From NCBI GenBank assembly GCA_003252455.1, contig QKED01000003.1:62001-126000 (forward strand): DNA of 64,000 bases. Reading direction: 5' to 3'. This stretch comes from Gammaproteobacteria bacterium (lineage in GTDB: Bacteria; Pseudomonadota; Gammaproteobacteria; Thiohalomonadales; Thiohalomonadaceae). Positions 11,552 to 49,009 of the stretch are shown here, in pieces (the stretch's first letter is position 1; each line of letters starts with the position of its first letter). The notes beneath the pieces are model-generated. The model saw nothing but the letters and a program-made list of their open reading frames with translations, had not been told where the DNA came from and searched no databases. A program made the position numbers and the translations under genes.

Positions 11552-12961
11552 CTAATCCTCCACTACCTTCCAGCGACCGCCCTTGGCCGGGCCGATGCGT
11601 TCCAGTTTGCCCTCTTCGCGCAGCTTTCTGATAGCCCGCTCGACCGCGCTTTCGGACTTGCCGACTTCACCGGCTATCGCTGGAATGGAAAGGCTGCCGT
11701 CATGTCGCAAAACGGCAAGGATTCTATCTGGTGTTTTCGGGGGTGCTTTTCCCGGCGTTTTCCCCAGCGTTTCTCCCGGCGTTTTCCCCAGCGTTTTCCC
11801 CGGCGTTTTCCCCGGCGTTTTCCCCGGCGTCTCGGTTGCTGTCCCCGTACCTGACTGCTCGACCGGAAAATTGAACGTGATCCACAAACCGCTCTGCTCA
11901 TACTGAAACAGCGGTGCGGAGACACCCGCCGTCGCACAGGCCTCCAGGATGCGTTCGATACCCCGCCCCCAGGATTCGATCATCCCGGCGCGGAAAAAGG
12001 CGTTGGCCACGTCGGGATTGAACGGCTGTGAGGCGTGCTTGGCCAATAGCTTTGCGACATCCCAGTCGGGCGGCAGAATCCCCGGATTCCAGATCATCAG
12101 CTTGTCGGCATAGACGCTGATCTGAATGGGAATGCCACTGGCATAGTCCTTGTGCACCACCGCATTGAGGAGCGCCTCGCGCAGGGCGGCCTCAGGCACC
12201 GGCCAGGTCTCGATGCGCTGCAACCCCTCGTAGGAGATCCATGCCCTGAGGTATTTGGCCTTGAGGATCTCGACGGCGCGATTCACCTGCATCAACAGGC
12301 TGCCATGCACCTCGTCCTGGTAGCGCAAATCGACGTTGTTGTCGAAAAATCCCAACTTCACCCAGGCACCGACGGCAAAGCGCTCGGGATCGCCGTGGAA
12401 CAGCAGCAGCGCGGCACGCTTCAAGAAACCCCCTTCGATCAGGTGGAGTTTCTCCAGCAACACCTCATCCGTCTCTTCGAGGATCTCGGTCGTGAGGCGC
12501 TGGCTCCGATCCGCCTGTTTGCGGAAGAAGGCGAGCGCGGCAGTATCCAGATCGGCAGCGCCGACCTGTGGCGTCGGCACCCCATCCCAATGCCGCCCCT
12601 GCTTGTTCAACAGAAACCGATCCAGTGCGGCCCCCTTCAGCTCCTGCTTGGTGCTGCCGCTACGATAGTGATATTGCCCTTTGTAGCTGATCGGGTAGGG
12701 ATAGGGCTCGACCCGGATCTCTACCAGCTGCTTGCCGCCCTCGTGACTTAGATTCACATCGACGACGCTGCCCAGCAGGTCGCGTACCTTGTTGGGCAGG
12801 GTCTCCAGCAACTGCCGTGCATCGGCCACACCCACCGCCTCACCCGCATCGTTGCGGCCAATGACCAGCACGCCACCCTCGGCATTGGCAAAGCCGCAGA
12901 TCCACTTCAGGTACTCGTCCCGCCACGAGACTTTCCATTCCACACGTTGCGATTCGTTCAT
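11552..12961 (-). CDS. AlbA_2/Schlafen-type ATP-binding protein with winged helix
   Basis: A 469-residue protein with three parts. The N-terminal AlbA_2 (Schlafen-like) domain includes ESQRVEWKVSW and FANAEGGVLVIGRND. The middle has a GHKL-type ATPase region with EALLNAVVHKDY, NPGILP and IESWGRGIERI. A low-complexity linker of GKTP repeats leads to a C-terminal winged helix (SIPAIAGEVGKSESAVERAI). Proteins of this kind recur inside type I restriction operons and other defence loci. A regulatory or effector role is suspected, not shown. The linker is coded by seven 12-bp tandem repeats (11745-11828). Start ATG at 12961; a repeat-filled spacer separates it from hsdS. Confidence 0.85.
   Translation of the reverse strand: MNESQRVEWKVSWRDEYLKWICGFANAEGGVLVIGRNDAGEAVGVADARQLLETLPNKVRDLLGSVVDVNLSHEGGKQLVEIRVEPYPYPISYKGQYHYRSGSTKQELKGAALDRFLLNKQGRHWDGVPTPQVGAADLDTAALAFFRKQADRSQRLTTEILEETDEVLLEKLHLIEGGFLKRAALLLFHGDPERFAVGAWVKLGFFDNNVDLRYQDEVHGSLLMQVNRAVEILKAKYLRAWISYEGLQRIETWPVPEAALREALLNAVVHKDYASGIPIQISVYADKLMIWNPGILPPDWDVAKLLAKHASQPFNPDVANAFFRAGMIESWGRGIERILEACATAGVSAPLFQYEQSGLWITFNFPVEQSGTGTATETPGKTPGKTPGKTLGKTPGETLGKTPGKAPPKTPDRILAVLRHDGSLSIPAIAGEVGKSESAVERAIRKLREEGKLERIGPAKGGRWKVVED
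11745..11828. repeat. Seven tandem 12-bp repeats coding a GKTP linker
   Basis: Seven successive 12-bp units of the form GTTTTCCCCGGC lie inside the AlbA_2 gene and encode Gly-Lys-Thr-Pro units. As 12 is a multiple of three, slippage would lengthen or shorten the linker without breaking the frame. Confidence 0.85.
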
Positions 12962-42403: not shown

Positions 42404-42415
42404 GGGGTTTTGCCT

Positions 42416-42626
42416 GGAGCCCCAAGCCAACGGCTTGTGCGGGGCGGTGCTGTTCGGGGGTGGGCGTTCAAGCCGTTGGCTTGAAGCTCCGGCGCTTGGA
42501 GCCCCAAGCCAACGGTTTGTGCGGGGCGGCGGTGTTCGAGGGTGGGCGTTCAAGCCGTTGGCTTGAAGCTCCGGCGCTTGGAGCCCCAAGCCAACGGCTT
42601 GTGCGGGGCGGCGCTGTTCGAGGGTG
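42416..42626. repeat. 82-bp tandem repeats, 2.6 copies, with internal palindromes
   Basis: Units start at 42416, 42498 and 42580, each opening GGAGCCCCAAGCCAACGG. Each full unit holds two hairpins, CAAGCCAACGGCTTG and CAAGCCGTTGGCTTG. The third unit is truncated after 47 bases. A related cluster is at 46900-47075. Confidence 0.9.
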
Positions 42627-42885
42627 TAGGTCGGATAAGCGCAGCGTCATCCGACGAGCCGCTGCTGACTCTCCCACAAAAACATCTAGTCGAGACGCTT
42701 CCCCCTGAAGCTCTATTCCACCCCTGCATGGTGAATGCAACGGCATCGATGCAGCCTCCCGACCGAGAGGGGGCGTGTTAGTTGCGTTTCGGACAATGAC
42801 GGGTGGCGTACCTCGGCACGCCGGATGAGAGGGACGCTAATCCGGCCCCCGTCTTGGCGATCCCGGCCAAGACGCAGACAGCTGA
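42627..42885. repeat. Spacer with further palindromes
   Basis: A hairpin with arms GTCGGAT and ATCCGAC is at 42629-42656. Another, GTCTTGGC with GCCAAGAC, is at 42851-42873, 13 bases after the end of the cytochrome gene and perhaps its terminator. No gene is seen. Confidence 0.6.
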
Positions 42886-44631
42886 TTATTCGACCTCCAC
42901 GCGGCTCACGGGGAGCGTGACCCCGGTCAGTCGATTCTGCTCCAGCTCGCGCCAGACGTTGGCCTGGGGGCGGATGGTGGCGTCTCGCCCCTGGGTGAAA
43001 CTCTGCGCCTGCACGATGCGCCAGTAGGCCTTGTCCAGGGTCAGGGCGCGTGCGCGACTGGGCACCAGGAGGCGGCTCACGTCGCGGTGCAGGGCATCGA
43101 GGGCGTCCTGGCGCAGCGCCCCCTTGGCGTCGAAGAAGCGCTCCATCACCTCCTGATTGCCACGAAACTCATCGCCAGCACCGTTGTGTTGCAGGTAGAG
43201 GCTGTATTCGTACTGGCCATCTTCGCGGCGGGGTTCGGCGCTGCCCTCTAGGCCCTTCTGCGTCCAGTGGTACCAGCCGCCCCGGTGGGCCTCTTGGCCG
43301 GTGAATTTGCGCGCGAAGGCGAAGGTGGTGTCGGTGGTGGCGCCGATGCCGCTGTGGCAGCCCATGCAGTAGAGCCCCTCCTCCTTGGTCTGCGGGCGCA
43401 GACGACCGTCGGTATCCTCGATAAAGCCCTGGTAGTGCCAGCCCTGGGTGAAGAGGCCGCGCTCCATGTCACCGGGGACCTGGCGGGTCTGGTCGGCGTT
43501 CAGGGCGCGCTCGCGCGCCTCGCGGATGGCCACCTGCTTGAGCTCGGAGTAGTTGTACCAGCTGCCCTTCTTGGCGTAGCGCAGCTCCTTCATGCGCGGG
43601 GCGAGGGCGCCGGGGGCGTCGGGGTCGAGGTAGCGCACGCTGTGCAGGAACTCGGTCCCCTCGGGGAAGAGCCCGGCGGCGAGGTGCAGGGTGCCCGCCT
43701 GTTGCAGCCGCCGCGCCTCGCCCACGTAGGACATCTCGCGTCCCTGACTCGGCTCCCAGTCGTAGGCGATGTGGTCGGCGCGGTCGAGCACGCCGTTTTT
43801 GTTCAGGTCGACCTGCCAGGTGGCCTCGGCCACCGCCGGGATGGGGACGTCGCGGCGCAGGATCAGCGCCTCGACGATGGCCAGGTTGACCTGATAGGTG
43901 AGGCGGTCGAACTGGCCGTCGTCGGCGTGTTGCAGCGCCGGGGCGAGGCGGATGAGTACGTCGTCGCTGGAGCCGTTGGTGGGCCAGAAGGTGCCGGGGA
44001 AGGGGGCGTAGGCGAAGGCGCGCCAGCCGGTGGGCTGGCCGTTGCGGTCGAGGTCGAACCCCTCGGCGTCGAAGGCGAAGTAGGCGTCGGGGGTGTAGCC
44101 GTCCCAGTGGGCGTCGCGGTCCAGGTCCCACTCCTTGGGCAGCGCGTTGAGCCGCTCGGCCAGGGTGATGCCGCCGTCAGCGGTGTGGTAGTTGTCGCCG
44201 CGCACATAGGCGAGCAGGGTCGCGTCGTCGATCGCCGCCACCTCGGCGCTGCGGTCGCTGAAGAGGTTGCTCCAGGGGTTGACCAGGGCCGGGCCGGGCA
44301 GGCTGTAGCTGAGCTGTAGGGCCCGGTCGTCGAGGTAGTTGGGCGCCTTGCCGTTGGTGTGGCAGGCGAAGCAGGGGTTGTGGCTCGCGCCCGCGGCATC
44401 CTGCGTCCGCGTGTAGCACTGCGGCGGGATGTAGGCGGTCGCGTTGGTGATCAGGGGGTTGGTGATGCGCCCGTCCACGCCCAGATAGGCGTCGGGGGCG
44501 ACGACCGGGGCGGCGTCACCGGCGCCCGTGTCGAGCTGTACCTGCGTTGCGGCTGGGGCGCTCGGGTCGTTGCCGCCACAGGCGGCAAGGCCCAGGCAGA
44601 GGGTGATGAGCAGGGTGTGCTGGGTGGACAT
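42886..44631 (-). CDS. Two-haem c-type cytochrome lipoprotein
   Basis: A 581-residue predicted lipoprotein. The signal peptide ends with lipobox LAAC (lipid Cys18). Two haem-binding sites are visible, CFACH at 87-91 and CMGCH at 422-426. A Ca-binding-like stretch DLDRNGQP and DLNKNGVLDRADH are also present. I do not recognise a named family. A periplasmic electron-transfer or oxidoreductase role is inferred. I prefer the ATG at 44631. A strong hairpin sits only 34 bases upstream, after phoX, so expression likely depends on readthrough from phoX. Confidence 0.75.
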   Translation of the reverse strand: MSTQHTLLITLCLGLAACGGNDPSAPAATQVQLDTGAGDAAPVVAPDAYLGVDGRITNPLITNATAYIPPQCYTRTQDAAGASHNPCFACHTNGKAPNYLDDRALQLSYSLPGPALVNPWSNLFSDRSAEVAAIDDATLLAYVRGDNYHTADGGITLAERLNALPKEWDLDRDAHWDGYTPDAYFAFDAEGFDLDRNGQPTGWRAFAYAPFPGTFWPTNGSSDDVLIRLAPALQHADDGQFDRLTYQVNLAIVEALILRRDVPIPAVAEATWQVDLNKNGVLDRADHIAYDWEPSQGREMSYVGEARRLQQAGTLHLAAGLFPEGTEFLHSVRYLDPDAPGALAPRMKELRYAKKGSWYNYSELKQVAIREARERALNADQTRQVPGDMERGLFTQGWHYQGFIEDTDGRLRPQTKEEGLYCMGCHSGIGATTDTTFAFARKFTGQEAHRGGWYHWTQKGLEGSAEPRREDGQYEYSLYLQHNGAGDEFRGNQEVMERFFDAKGALRQDALDALHRDVSRLLVPSRARALTLDKAYWRIVQAQSFTQGRDATIRPQANVWRELEQNRLTGVTLPVSRVEVE

Positions 44632-44664: not shown

Positions 44665-44700
44665 AAAAACCGGCCCATGCACTTGGCATGGCCGGTTTTG
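44665..44700 (-). terminator. Strong hairpin between phoX and the cytochrome gene
   Basis: Arms AAAACCGGCC-ATGC and GCATGGCCGGTTTT pair with one bulged base, and the minus strand continues TTTTTC. It is 80 bases after the phoX stop and 34 bases before the cytochrome start, so it may act as an intercistronic attenuator. Confidence 0.8.
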
Positions 44701-44781
44701 CGTGGCTTGGCAATCGGTCGCTGCGGGGTCCGCCGTCTGGTGTGCCCGCGTGGGCGCACCAGCCGTTGCCGAAGCTGAGGC

Positions 44782-46728
44782 TTACTTCAGTGAGGGGAAG
44801 GGACCGATGTAGCCGACGTAGGACTCCTTGTCCGCCGCGCTGCCGGCCTTGTCGCCATCGGACTCACCGTACGGGTGCTGGGTCACCAGGGTGGCGTAGC
44901 CGTAGCCGTTGATGTCGGTGTGCCAGAAGGGCGAGGTGGTTTCGGAGCCGTAGGGGGTGGTGGCGATGCGGGTCATGGTGCCGAGCTTGACGTCGTAGGA
45001 CCAGACGAAGTCGTTCTGGTGCTTGTCGGTGTCCTCACCGATGAGCAGCTGGCCGTACTTGGGCAGGTAGGAGACGTTGTCGGGGTTGGAGACACCGTTG
45101 ACGCTGCAATCATTACCGGCGTAGCTGGTGCCGGTGTAGTCCATGGACTGGCCGATGAGCAGGCCGTACATGTTGAGGGCGACGTAGTCGCTGTCGATCG
45201 CCGTGCCGTTGCTGTCGTAGGCGCCGCCCTGGATGTCGAGGCCGTAGACCGCACCGCAGGAGTTCTTGGTGAGGCGGATGTGGTTGGGGCCACCCTTGTC
45301 CTGGCTGGAGCCGTTCTCCATGCCCTTGGCCACTTCGCTCATGGCGACGTAGAGGACGTTCTGGTCCGGGTTGTAGGTGATGCCCTCTTCCTTGCGGAAC
45401 TCGGTGGTGGCGCCCATCACGGCGGCGTAGAGACGGGTCTCCAGACGCGAGGCCATCTGCTCCATGCCGCTCTTGACCATCACGCACTTGAAGCCGGCGT
45501 CGTAGGTGTTGGTGGCGGTGTACTTGGGATCGCTACAGGTGCCGGTGCCGCTGTCGGCGGCGGCATCCACCTCGAACATGGTGTCGAAGGTGACCGAGCT
45601 GTCGTCGAGGTAGGCCTTGATCTCGGCGTTGCTGGCGTGGCCCAGGTTGATCCACTCCAGGGAGGCGGAACCGGCGCCGGTGGCGGACTCCTGGATCCAC
45701 TTGGCGGCGTAGAGGGTACCGGCGCTCAGGTCTTGCGCAGTGTCGGCGACGAACATGAACAGGCCGACGTTGGTGCCGTCGTCGGAGAGGTAGACGGTGC
45801 GCTCGTCGGGCATGACGTAGGCCAGCTCGTGGGCGAAGCGGCCCAGGGTGTAGTGCTTCTGCACCGAGCTGTCGCCGCTGGCGGAGGTGATCTGGATCTC
45901 CGGCACCCAGCCGTAGAAGTAGCCGAAGTGGGCGGCGTTGGCGGCGTCGTTGGTCAGGCCGTTGTAGCGGGCGATGGAGTCCATGTGCTCGTCGTGCCAG
46001 CCGTCAGAGGCGCTATTGCCGAACCAGTAGGGGGCGACCGTGGGGGTGGGGTTGAAGTTGGCCATCGGCGGCTCGTACTCCTCGGAGCCGAGGTGGCTGT
46101 TCCACGGGGTGGTCATGCCGGCGCAGTTGACGTAGGTGCCGAAGACGTTGGAGAAGTCCACCGGGCGGGTGGCCACGGCAGCGAGGTTGCCCATGCCGTC
46201 CTGCGACAGCTCGGTGACGTAGGCACCGCCCAGCGAGCACTCGAGCTGGGTGACGGCGAACAGCTTGCTGCCGAAGGTGAGCATGGAGGTGTGGTCGGGG
46301 CCGGAGCCGTTGGTGCAGACCCAGTCGCTGTTGTCGGCGGCCTTGAAGGCAGCACCGGTCTTGTCGGTCAGCAGGCCGAAGATGGCGGTCTCGCCCGTGG
46401 CACCGCCCAGCAGGGGCAGCACTTCGTTGGTGCGCACCAGGGTGTTGTAGCCGATGGAGTAGGTGGTCTCGTTGATGGTGACCTCGGTCGCGGCGCGGAT
46501 CTGCTTCTTCTCGCTATCGACGACCGGCACGGAGACGCCCATGAACTGCATGCTGTAGGCGAGACCCGACTCCCCTTGCGGGCCCTGGCTACCCTGTACG
46601 CCTTGGACGCCCTGAGCACCATTGGTGCCGTTGGTACCATCGGCACCGTCAGAACCATCTTCGGCGCAGCCGAACAGGCCGGTGGAGAGGGCAGCGATGA
46701 TCGCCAGACTGAGCAGCTTCTTTTCCAT
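44782..46728 (-). CDS. PhoX-type (DUF839) lipoprotein phosphatase with collagen-like stalk
   Basis: A 648-residue protein. It starts MEKKLLSLAIIAALSTGLFGC, a lipoprotein signal with lipid Cys21. Residues 25-54 are ten Gly-X-Y triplets (GSDGADGTNGTNGAQG). The main domain shows PhoX/DUF839 features such as LGSEEYEPP, FGRFAHELAYVMPDE-like text (LGRFAHELAYVMPDERTVYL), ITYNPDQNVLYVAMSE and GQLLIGEDTDKHQND. PhoX enzymes are Ca/Fe-dependent phosphomonoesterases made under phosphate starvation, usually exported by Tat. Here export looks like Sec plus lipid anchoring. A phased array of TGAC boxes lies upstream, fitting PhoB control. Catalytic activity is not proven by the sequence. Confidence 0.8.
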   Translation of the reverse strand: MEKKLLSLAIIAALSTGLFGCAEDGSDGADGTNGTNGAQGVQGVQGSQGPQGESGLAYSMQFMGVSVPVVDSEKKQIRAATEVTINETTYSIGYNTLVRTNEVLPLLGGATGETAIFGLLTDKTGAAFKAADNSDWVCTNGSGPDHTSMLTFGSKLFAVTQLECSLGGAYVTELSQDGMGNLAAVATRPVDFSNVFGTYVNCAGMTTPWNSHLGSEEYEPPMANFNPTPTVAPYWFGNSASDGWHDEHMDSIARYNGLTNDAANAAHFGYFYGWVPEIQITSASGDSSVQKHYTLGRFAHELAYVMPDERTVYLSDDGTNVGLFMFVADTAQDLSAGTLYAAKWIQESATGAGSASLEWINLGHASNAEIKAYLDDSSVTFDTMFEVDAAADSGTGTCSDPKYTATNTYDAGFKCVMVKSGMEQMASRLETRLYAAVMGATTEFRKEEGITYNPDQNVLYVAMSEVAKGMENGSSQDKGGPNHIRLTKNSCGAVYGLDIQGGAYDSNGTAIDSDYVALNMYGLLIGQSMDYTGTSYAGNDCSVNGVSNPDNVSYLPKYGQLLIGEDTDKHQNDFVWSYDVKLGTMTRIATTPYGSETTSPFWHTDINGYGYATLVTQHPYGESDGDKAGSAADKESYVGYIGPFPSLK

Positions 46729-46792
46729 CACGTGATACACCTTTGAGGATTGGGTAGATGAGCCAAATGAGGCGCATGGTGGTGGTGTGGGA

Positions 46793-46851
46793 TGACGTGA
46801 GGGTGACGTGAAAGTGACCGAATTTGTTCCGCCGCATGACATTGGTGTGAC
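46793..46851 (-). promoter_or_regulatory. Candidate PhoB array (Pho box) upstream of phoX-like gene
   Basis: On the plus strand, TGAC occurs at 46793, 46804, 46815, 46837 and 46848, spaced exactly 11, 11, 22 and 11 bases. On the coding strand this gives GTCAC/GTCAT half-sites at the 11-bp period of Pho boxes. The nearest lies 65 bases before the start. Confidence 0.75.
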
Positions 46852-46899
46852 GGCGTGGTGATCGCTGAAATGGGGCGTTAAGGAGGTGGGGTGGCGTTG

Positions 46900-47075
46900 T
46901 TCGAGGGTGAGGATTCAAGCCGCTGGCTTGAGGCTCCGGTGGGGCTGGGCGGGAGTCACAAGCCAACGGCTTGTGCGGGGTGGCGTTGTTCGAGGGTGAG
47001 AATTCAAGCCGTTGGCTTGAAGCTCCGGGGGGGCTGTTCGAGGGGGCTCAAGCCGTTGGCTTGAGGCTCCGCTGG
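46900..47075. repeat. Palindromic repeat cluster related to 42416-42626
   Basis: Hairpins TTCAAGCC(G/A)...GGCTTGA recur (about 46914-46931, 46959-46973, 47003-47021, 47047-47063), with the same TTCGAGGGTGAG linkers seen in the 82-bp repeats. It fills the space between phoX and the antiporter. Confidence 0.8.
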
Positions 47076-48130: not shown

Positions 48131-49009
48131 TCAGCGGCCGGGGGGGGGCGGGGCGGTGCCCGGGTCGGCAAAGGGGTCGATGTCGCGCGCATCGAGCGGT
48201 GCGCTCGGGTCGGCGAAGGGGTCGATGGCGCCCGGGTCGAGCGGCGCACTCGGGTCGGCGAAGGGGTCGATGGCCCCCGGGTCGCCGAACGGGTCGATAG
48301 CATCCGCCGGACCACTCACCGGTGGCGGGTTACCGTCGTAGACCAGGTTGCGGCGACGCTGCAGATAGGCGCCGCGCATGAAGGCGTAGGGGTCGAGGGC
48401 GGCGCTGTCGAGCATGCGACTGCCCTGCAGCAGGCTGGCGCGCAGGTCGACGATCTCCACCGCCTTGAGCCCGTAGTAGGTGCCGTAGTCGTCGACCATC
48501 TCGGCCAACGGGTCGAAGTTCCAACTGGCGAGGGTGCCGCTGGCGTCGCGCACGCTGCTCGGGCCGAGGAAGGGGATGACGAAGTAGGGACCGGGGCCGA
48601 GGCCCCAGTAGCCCAGGGTCTGGCCGAAGTCCTCGTTGTGTTTGGGCAGGTCGAGCGGGGTGGCCACATCGAACAGGCCACCGAGGCCGACGAGGCTGTT
48701 GACCGAGACGCGCCCCAGGTCCTGCAACGCCTGCTCGCCCTTGAGCTGCAGCAGGTCGTTGACGAACACCAGCACATCACCGAGGTTGCCGAAGAAGTTG
48801 CTCACGCTGCGGCTCACCGGCTTGGGCACGTAGGCCTCGTAGGCCTCGGCGGTGGGGCGCAGCACGGCGCGGTCTACCGCGTCGTTGAAGCGATAGACGC
48901 TGCGGTTGTAAGACTCCCAGGGGTCCTCGGGGCTGGTCGCGCGCGGGGATGTGGCGCAACCGCCGAGCAGTAGGGCGGCGGCGAGGAGGGGGACGGGGTG
49001 CAGGCGCAT
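48131..49009 (-). CDS. mlaA: MlaA (VacJ) outer-membrane lipoprotein with repeat tail
   Basis: A 292-residue lipoprotein (lipobox LGGC, Cys18) of the VacJ/MlaA family, which removes phospholipids from the outer leaflet of the outer membrane. Family signatures include DPWESYNRSVYRFNDAVD, FFGNLGDVLVFVNDLLQ and ETLGYWGLGPGPYF-like text (QTLGYWGLGPGPYFVIPFLG). The last ~55 residues are unusual: an imperfect repeat of AIDPFADPSAPLDPG, rich in Asp and Pro. Start ATG at 49009. Other mla genes are not in the window. Confidence 0.93.
   Translation of the reverse strand: MRLHPVPLLAAALLLGGCATSPRATSPEDPWESYNRSVYRFNDAVDRAVLRPTAEAYEAYVPKPVSRSVSNFFGNLGDVLVFVNDLLQLKGEQALQDLGRVSVNSLVGLGGLFDVATPLDLPKHNEDFGQTLGYWGLGPGPYFVIPFLGPSSVRDASGTLASWNFDPLAEMVDDYGTYYGLKAVEIVDLRASLLQGSRMLDSAALDPYAFMRGAYLQRRRNLVYDGNPPPVSGPADAIDPFGDPGAIDPFADPSAPLDPGAIDPFADPSAPLDARDIDPFADPGTAPPPPGR
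48155..48300. repeat. 45-bp coding repeats in the mlaA tail
   Basis: About three imperfect 45-bp units encode IDPFADPSAPLD-type repeats at the MlaA C-terminus. The unit length is a multiple of three, so copy-number change would keep the frame. Confidence 0.75.

Follow-up and report, generated by a model that had tools for sequence, protein, structure and literature searches.

The phoX-like locus and its upstream array

The window, the whole stretch of 64,000 nucleotides that was analysed, carries on its minus strand a phoX-like gene, a gene for a protein with two CxxCH motifs downstream of it, and an array of 11-bp repeats in front of the phoX-like start codon. The features are listed below; half-site scores come from a hand-built matrix, based on the known PhoB consensus and half-site and not trained on these sequences.

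42886–44631, minus strand: gene for a lipoprotein-like protein of 581 aa with two CxxCH motifs (residues 87–91 and 422–426), possibly in the same operon
44665–44706, minus strand: hairpin followed by a T run, a possible terminator or attenuator, between the phoX-like and two-CxxCH genes
44782–46728, minus strand: phoX-like gene, 648 aa (Pfam PF05787, Foldseek, AlphaFold)
46740–46744, minus strand: putative ribosome-binding site AAAGG, proposed from the sequence
46776–46781, minus strand: putative −10 hexamer CACCAT (weak, 3/6 to TATAAT), 10 bp past the last half-site, placed by the spacing in orthologues
46792–46798, minus strand: half-site 6, ACGTCAT, score 7.4
46803–46809, minus strand: half-site 5, ACGTCAC, score 5.8
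46814–46820, minus strand: half-site 4, CGGTCAC, score 5.7
46825–46831, minus strand: position 3, degenerate unit CGGAACA (gap in the array), score −10.6
46836–46842, minus strand: half-site 2, ATGTCAT, score 10.4
46847–46853, minus strand: half-site 1, CCGTCAC, score 7.3
46858–46864, minus strand: half-site 0 (weak), CGATCAC, same 11-bp register, score 1.0

The five TGAC half-sites that an earlier note on this DNA had placed in strict 11-bp register at 46793–46851 all lie where it put them, at 46793, 46804, 46815, 46837 and 46848 (+0, +11, +22, +44 and +55). While these positions stand, the functional reading is that of GTCAY units on the minus strand, oriented toward the gene at 44782–46728, and a weaker sixth unit has to be added at +66 (TGAT at 46859–46862, ATCAC on the minus strand). 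In 11-bp steps the minus strand reads CGATCAC, CCGTCAC, ATGTCAT, (CGGAACA), CGGTCAC, ACGTCAC and ACGTCAT, with six of the seven register positions occupied and a degenerate unit at 46831–46825, for which the description as one missing half-site is apt. The three-unit pattern has its sole exact match in the window at 46793.

A regular array could also be a product of chance or of tandem duplication that serves no function, and the first two spacers are indeed alike (TGACGTGAGGG/TGACGTGAAAG); elsewhere the spacers differ, and the units there have the TGAC core alone in common. In 300 simulated windows of the same dinucleotide content (first-order Markov), TGAC or GTCA never filled five of six positions in an 11-bp register, the best case being four, reached once. 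Likewise, no 5-of-6 array of any 4-mer at any period from 8 to 20 occurred in 20 simulated windows, and the real window holds just two others of this type, a 12-bp tandem repeat at about 11.75 kb and a CGAC array at about 25.0 kb. Given these sequence statistics a functionless array is very unlikely indeed; spacing, orientation and position are moreover conserved in orthologues (see below). Plain tandem duplication as the origin of the array was rejected, since just two spacers are alike.

Several other repeats were observed in the window. The 12-bp periodic repeat contains GCGTTTTCCCC and spans approximately 11733–11850. A repeat of about 82 nt with the palindrome-like core TTCAAGCCGTTGGCTTGAAGCTCC is found at 42412–42657 and 46888–47070. 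Five close copies (no more than one mismatch) and two more degenerate ones occur in the window, against an expectation of none; one of the clusters is situated just upstream of the Pho array. At 48158–48292, three 45-nt direct repeats give an MlaA-type lipoprotein a 15-residue repeat (GAIDPFADPSAPLD-like) at its C-terminal end.

Between the array and the ATG at 46728 lie 63 bp, and the array runs in the same direction as the phoX-like gene. PhoB promoters do without a normal −35 element; a generic promoter scan of this region of the window found no promoter. In E. coli the half-site is CTGTCAT, and a PhoB site consists of two 11-nt direct-repeat units that are bound in tandem (PMC4415409). With the Pho box of E. 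coli and other Proteobacteria the window array shares the 11-bp direct repeats, the GTCAY core and the position upstream of phosphate-acquisition genes on the gene strand, and a −10 element about 10 bp past the box is shared by the window's orthologues. However, the array is longer than a single two-unit Pho box, with five to six usable units and one gap, and its half-sites begin with CG or CC instead of CT, possibly owing to the high GC content of the genome. Many PhoB-bound sites of E. coli are transcriptionally inert and lie mostly within genes (PMC10294691), whereas the window array is located in a promoter region. A PhoB site has also been predicted for PhoX3 of Ramlibacter tataouinensis, at −96 to −81 (PMC5768637). 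In that case just one site is predicted and the signals are of Tat type, in contrast to the multi-unit array with support from orthologues described here.

Conservation of the array and the regulator PhoB

Conservation of spacing was tested with the best half-site pair in the 300-bp upstream regions of 17 PhoX orthologues, the window being excluded. The best pair scored 11.97 at a spacing of 11 and 8.19 at a spacing of 22, compared with 4.14 ± 0.81 at the remaining spacings between 5 and 30. This 11-bp signal is confined to the gene strand and absent from the opposite strand, and the distance of the half-sites to the start codon is approximately the same as in the window. In the per-gene table, a spacing of 11 is the best in 16 of 18 cases. 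Extension to 79 named loci gave mean scores for the 11-bp signal of 10.2 in Gamma-, 11.0 in Alpha- and 9.8 in Epsilonproteobacteria; no such signal was found in Delta (3.2), Myxococcota (2.2) and Bacilli (1.6), for which the start codons, and hence the upstream stretch, are less certain. In 18 of 43 orthologues a TAnnnT hexamer follows the last half-site at a distance of exactly 10 bp; at other offsets it was found in none to two, except for five at 21 bp, which is one unit further.

In one relative (G028, L013:3393–3485), strong 11-bp-spaced pairs lie upstream of phoX in both directions (CTGTCATTCTTTTGTCATC on the opposite strand), which suggests a divergent, putatively PhoB-controlled gene beside phoX.

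The genome (4.58 Mb, 118 contigs) encodes PhoB (343.7 bits, curated cut-off 296.2) and, directly after phoB, PhoR (425.6 bits, cut-off 334.2). About 70 bp upstream of phoB lies the GTCAY pair TGTCATAAAGGTGTCAC, and after it a second pair, TGTCTTCACACTGTCAT, keeps to this 11-bp phase, one unit being absent in between, a layout that resembles the window array down to its one-unit gap. The arrangement GTCAY-N6-GTCAY also precedes further phosphate genes. The candidate PhoB targets are:

L029 (contig C10): pstS-pstC, two pairs
L032 (contig C63): Na/Pi cotransporter
L044 (contig C31): PPK2 (polyphosphate:AMP phosphotransferase)
L042 (contig C104): exported protein, unassigned family
L038 (contig C69): family-4 glycosyltransferase

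Units 4–6 of the window array form the sole exact GTCAY triple in the genome. With one mismatch allowed, four matches were obtained, two of which belong to the window array and one to pstS, while the reversed pattern used as a control gave none in the genome even at one mismatch. Within the class, 69 of 369 genomes contain an exact triple, which makes arrays of this kind uncommon, though not unique. Pairs are weakly enriched genome-wide (36 versus 21 in the control) and many lie inside genes; they were therefore trusted only before genes recognised as phosphate-related.

Recognition of direct repeats is common to OmpR-family regulators, about ten further full-length members of which (OmpR/PhoB type) are encoded in the genome, and the sites of ArcA and KdpE are direct repeats as well. 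Binding of the array by such a regulator with a repeat of about 11 bp, such as a relative of ArcA or KdpE, is nevertheless improbable: the same GTCAY pair is found before phoB, pstS, the Na/Pi cotransporter and PPK2, the target gene belongs to a phosphatase family, and the half-site fits the PhoB consensus. The presence of phoBR, the recurrence of the motif at phosphate genes and the spacing in orthologues instead uphold the earlier proposal that a PhoB array controls the phoX-like gene.

A second PhoX is encoded on contig C76, and no convincing Pho box was found upstream of it. The gene (L088:272–9499) encodes an exported protein of 3076 residues that combines PhoX, endonuclease/exonuclease/phosphatase, PhoD, 5'-nucleotidase and PKD-type domains and thereby unites four phosphoester hydrolases in a single polypeptide.

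The PhoX-like protein and its two-CxxCH neighbour

The assignment of the downstream protein as PhoX-like is borne out by both family model and fold. The Pfam family PhoX (PF05787) matches with an E-value of 7.2e-26 and 91.8 bits against a curated cut-off of 24. The best PDB match found by Foldseek for the AlphaFold model (pLDDT 85.7) is PhoX of P. fluorescens (3zwu; E 1.7e-19, TM 0.54/0.60), and the first match to a different fold follows far behind (E about 1e-6, TM 0.18). A contig scan with the single protein as query found no relatives. Compared with P. fluorescens PhoX (3zwu/4a9v), the protein shares domain, fold, the Cys of the NCAxxxTPW motif and several acidic residues. However, identity over the structural alignment is only about 18% (TM about 0.54–0.60), and the N-terminus displays a Sec/lipoprotein-type signal with a lipobox-like LFGC, followed by a collagen-like GXY spacer (residues 25–55; Pfam, sub-threshold), instead of a Tat signal. 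No twin arginine was found in the PhoX-like protein, and a Tat-like motif is present in only two of the 18 full-length proteins of homologue set A1. A Tat signal peptide is typical of known PhoX enzymes and is no criterion of the Pfam family. All 19 homologues compared have C202, E216, E217, E301, D317 and E448, and these align with residues which we take to be the metal ligands of PhoX. In the alignments, K446 apparently replaces an Arg of PhoX to which we assume a functional role. The protein is a putative phosphatase.

A further difference from P. fluorescens PhoX is the two-CxxCH protein encoded alongside. No Pfam or NCBIfam model matched this protein above cut-off. Its structural model is confident (pLDDT 82); a fold search of the PDB with it gave no match better than E 0.4, and a literature search for a link between PhoX and a cytochrome found nothing. 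The family is an undescribed, cytochrome-like one and is more novel than the Pho array; based on the CxxCH haem motifs, the partner is a possible haem carrier.

Among 80 named PhoX loci, a two-CxxCH homologue is located on the same strand in 43, always downstream except in L146 and usually with a gap of about 20–200 bp to phoX; four additional loci have it on the opposite strand. The two-CxxCH family occurs in 18 of 369 genomes in the class and the PhoX subfamily in 25; both are present in 15 (Fisher p about 1e-17, for genomes that are not phylogenetically independent), and the genes are adjacent in 13 of these 15. The pairing of lipoprotein-type PhoX and two-CxxCH protein is spread over Gamma-, Alpha-, Delta- and Epsilonproteobacteria and Myxococcota.

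In three Desulfocapsa-type loci (L092, L093 and L105) the partner extends as a frame of more than 960 aa with a third CxxCH; the extension in L105 contains PD40 beta-propeller repeats (Pfam).

These neighbourhoods bear on the function of the gene product. The PhoX-like protein might be no simple phosphatase; it could be a redox-coupled enzyme that acts with its two-CxxCH partner on another phosphorus source, or the partner could load or maintain the Fe/Ca centre. Such a role is compatible with PhoB control and competes solely over what the gene product does. The cytochrome-like gene adjoins phoX in about half of the 80 loci and 15 of the 18 genomes that carry it have both, and the subfamily departs from PhoX in its lipoprotein-type export and in the apparent Lys for Arg. 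On the other hand, the Cys and acidic residues that presumably coordinate the metals do not vary, and the window has a hairpin and T run between the two genes, which also makes co-transcription and co-regulation of the two-CxxCH gene there uncertain. On balance, a redox role or a metal-maintaining partner is possible but rather less likely than an ordinary phosphatase.

Probable PhoB control of phoX and its wider meaning

Read from sequence, the repeated motif is very probably a PhoB docking site before a secreted phosphatase-like gene, and the data support a putative operator that extends beyond two half-sites and includes a gap. It is highly likely that the stretch from 46858 to 46792 on the minus strand represents a PhoB operator in the phoX promoter, through which an exported phosphatase-like protein would be activated at low phosphate. 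This operator would comprise head-to-tail 11-bp half-sites, five of them near-consensus GTCAY, one weak and one degenerate. In line with the way PhoB is known to act (PMC4415409 for tandem binding), PhoR would phosphorylate PhoB when phosphate is scarce, and PhoB dimers are expected to occupy the direct repeats. The box nearest the gene would take the place of the −35 element, and PhoB would recruit sigma-70 RNA polymerase to a predicted transcription start some 40 nt ahead of the phoX ATG (46728). Low phosphate should accordingly induce phoX, and the PhoX-like lipoprotein, once exported, would act at the cell surface to free phosphate from organic esters.

The PhoB control region itself is well supported as an ordinary switch of a known kind. 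More tentatively, the Pho-box array may head a two-gene module for phosphorus scavenging, composed of a lipoprotein-type PhoX and a cytochrome-like partner, in which the PhoX enzyme would be redox-coupled or redox-maintained. The locus presents a clear sequence-level case for PhoB control of a PhoX subfamily outside the classical Tat-exported enzymes, a control that, as the comparison of orthologues suggests, occurs widely among Gamma-, Alpha- and Epsilonproteobacteria. Moreover, the conserved neighbour makes it a testable question why a phosphatase gene travels with a cytochrome.
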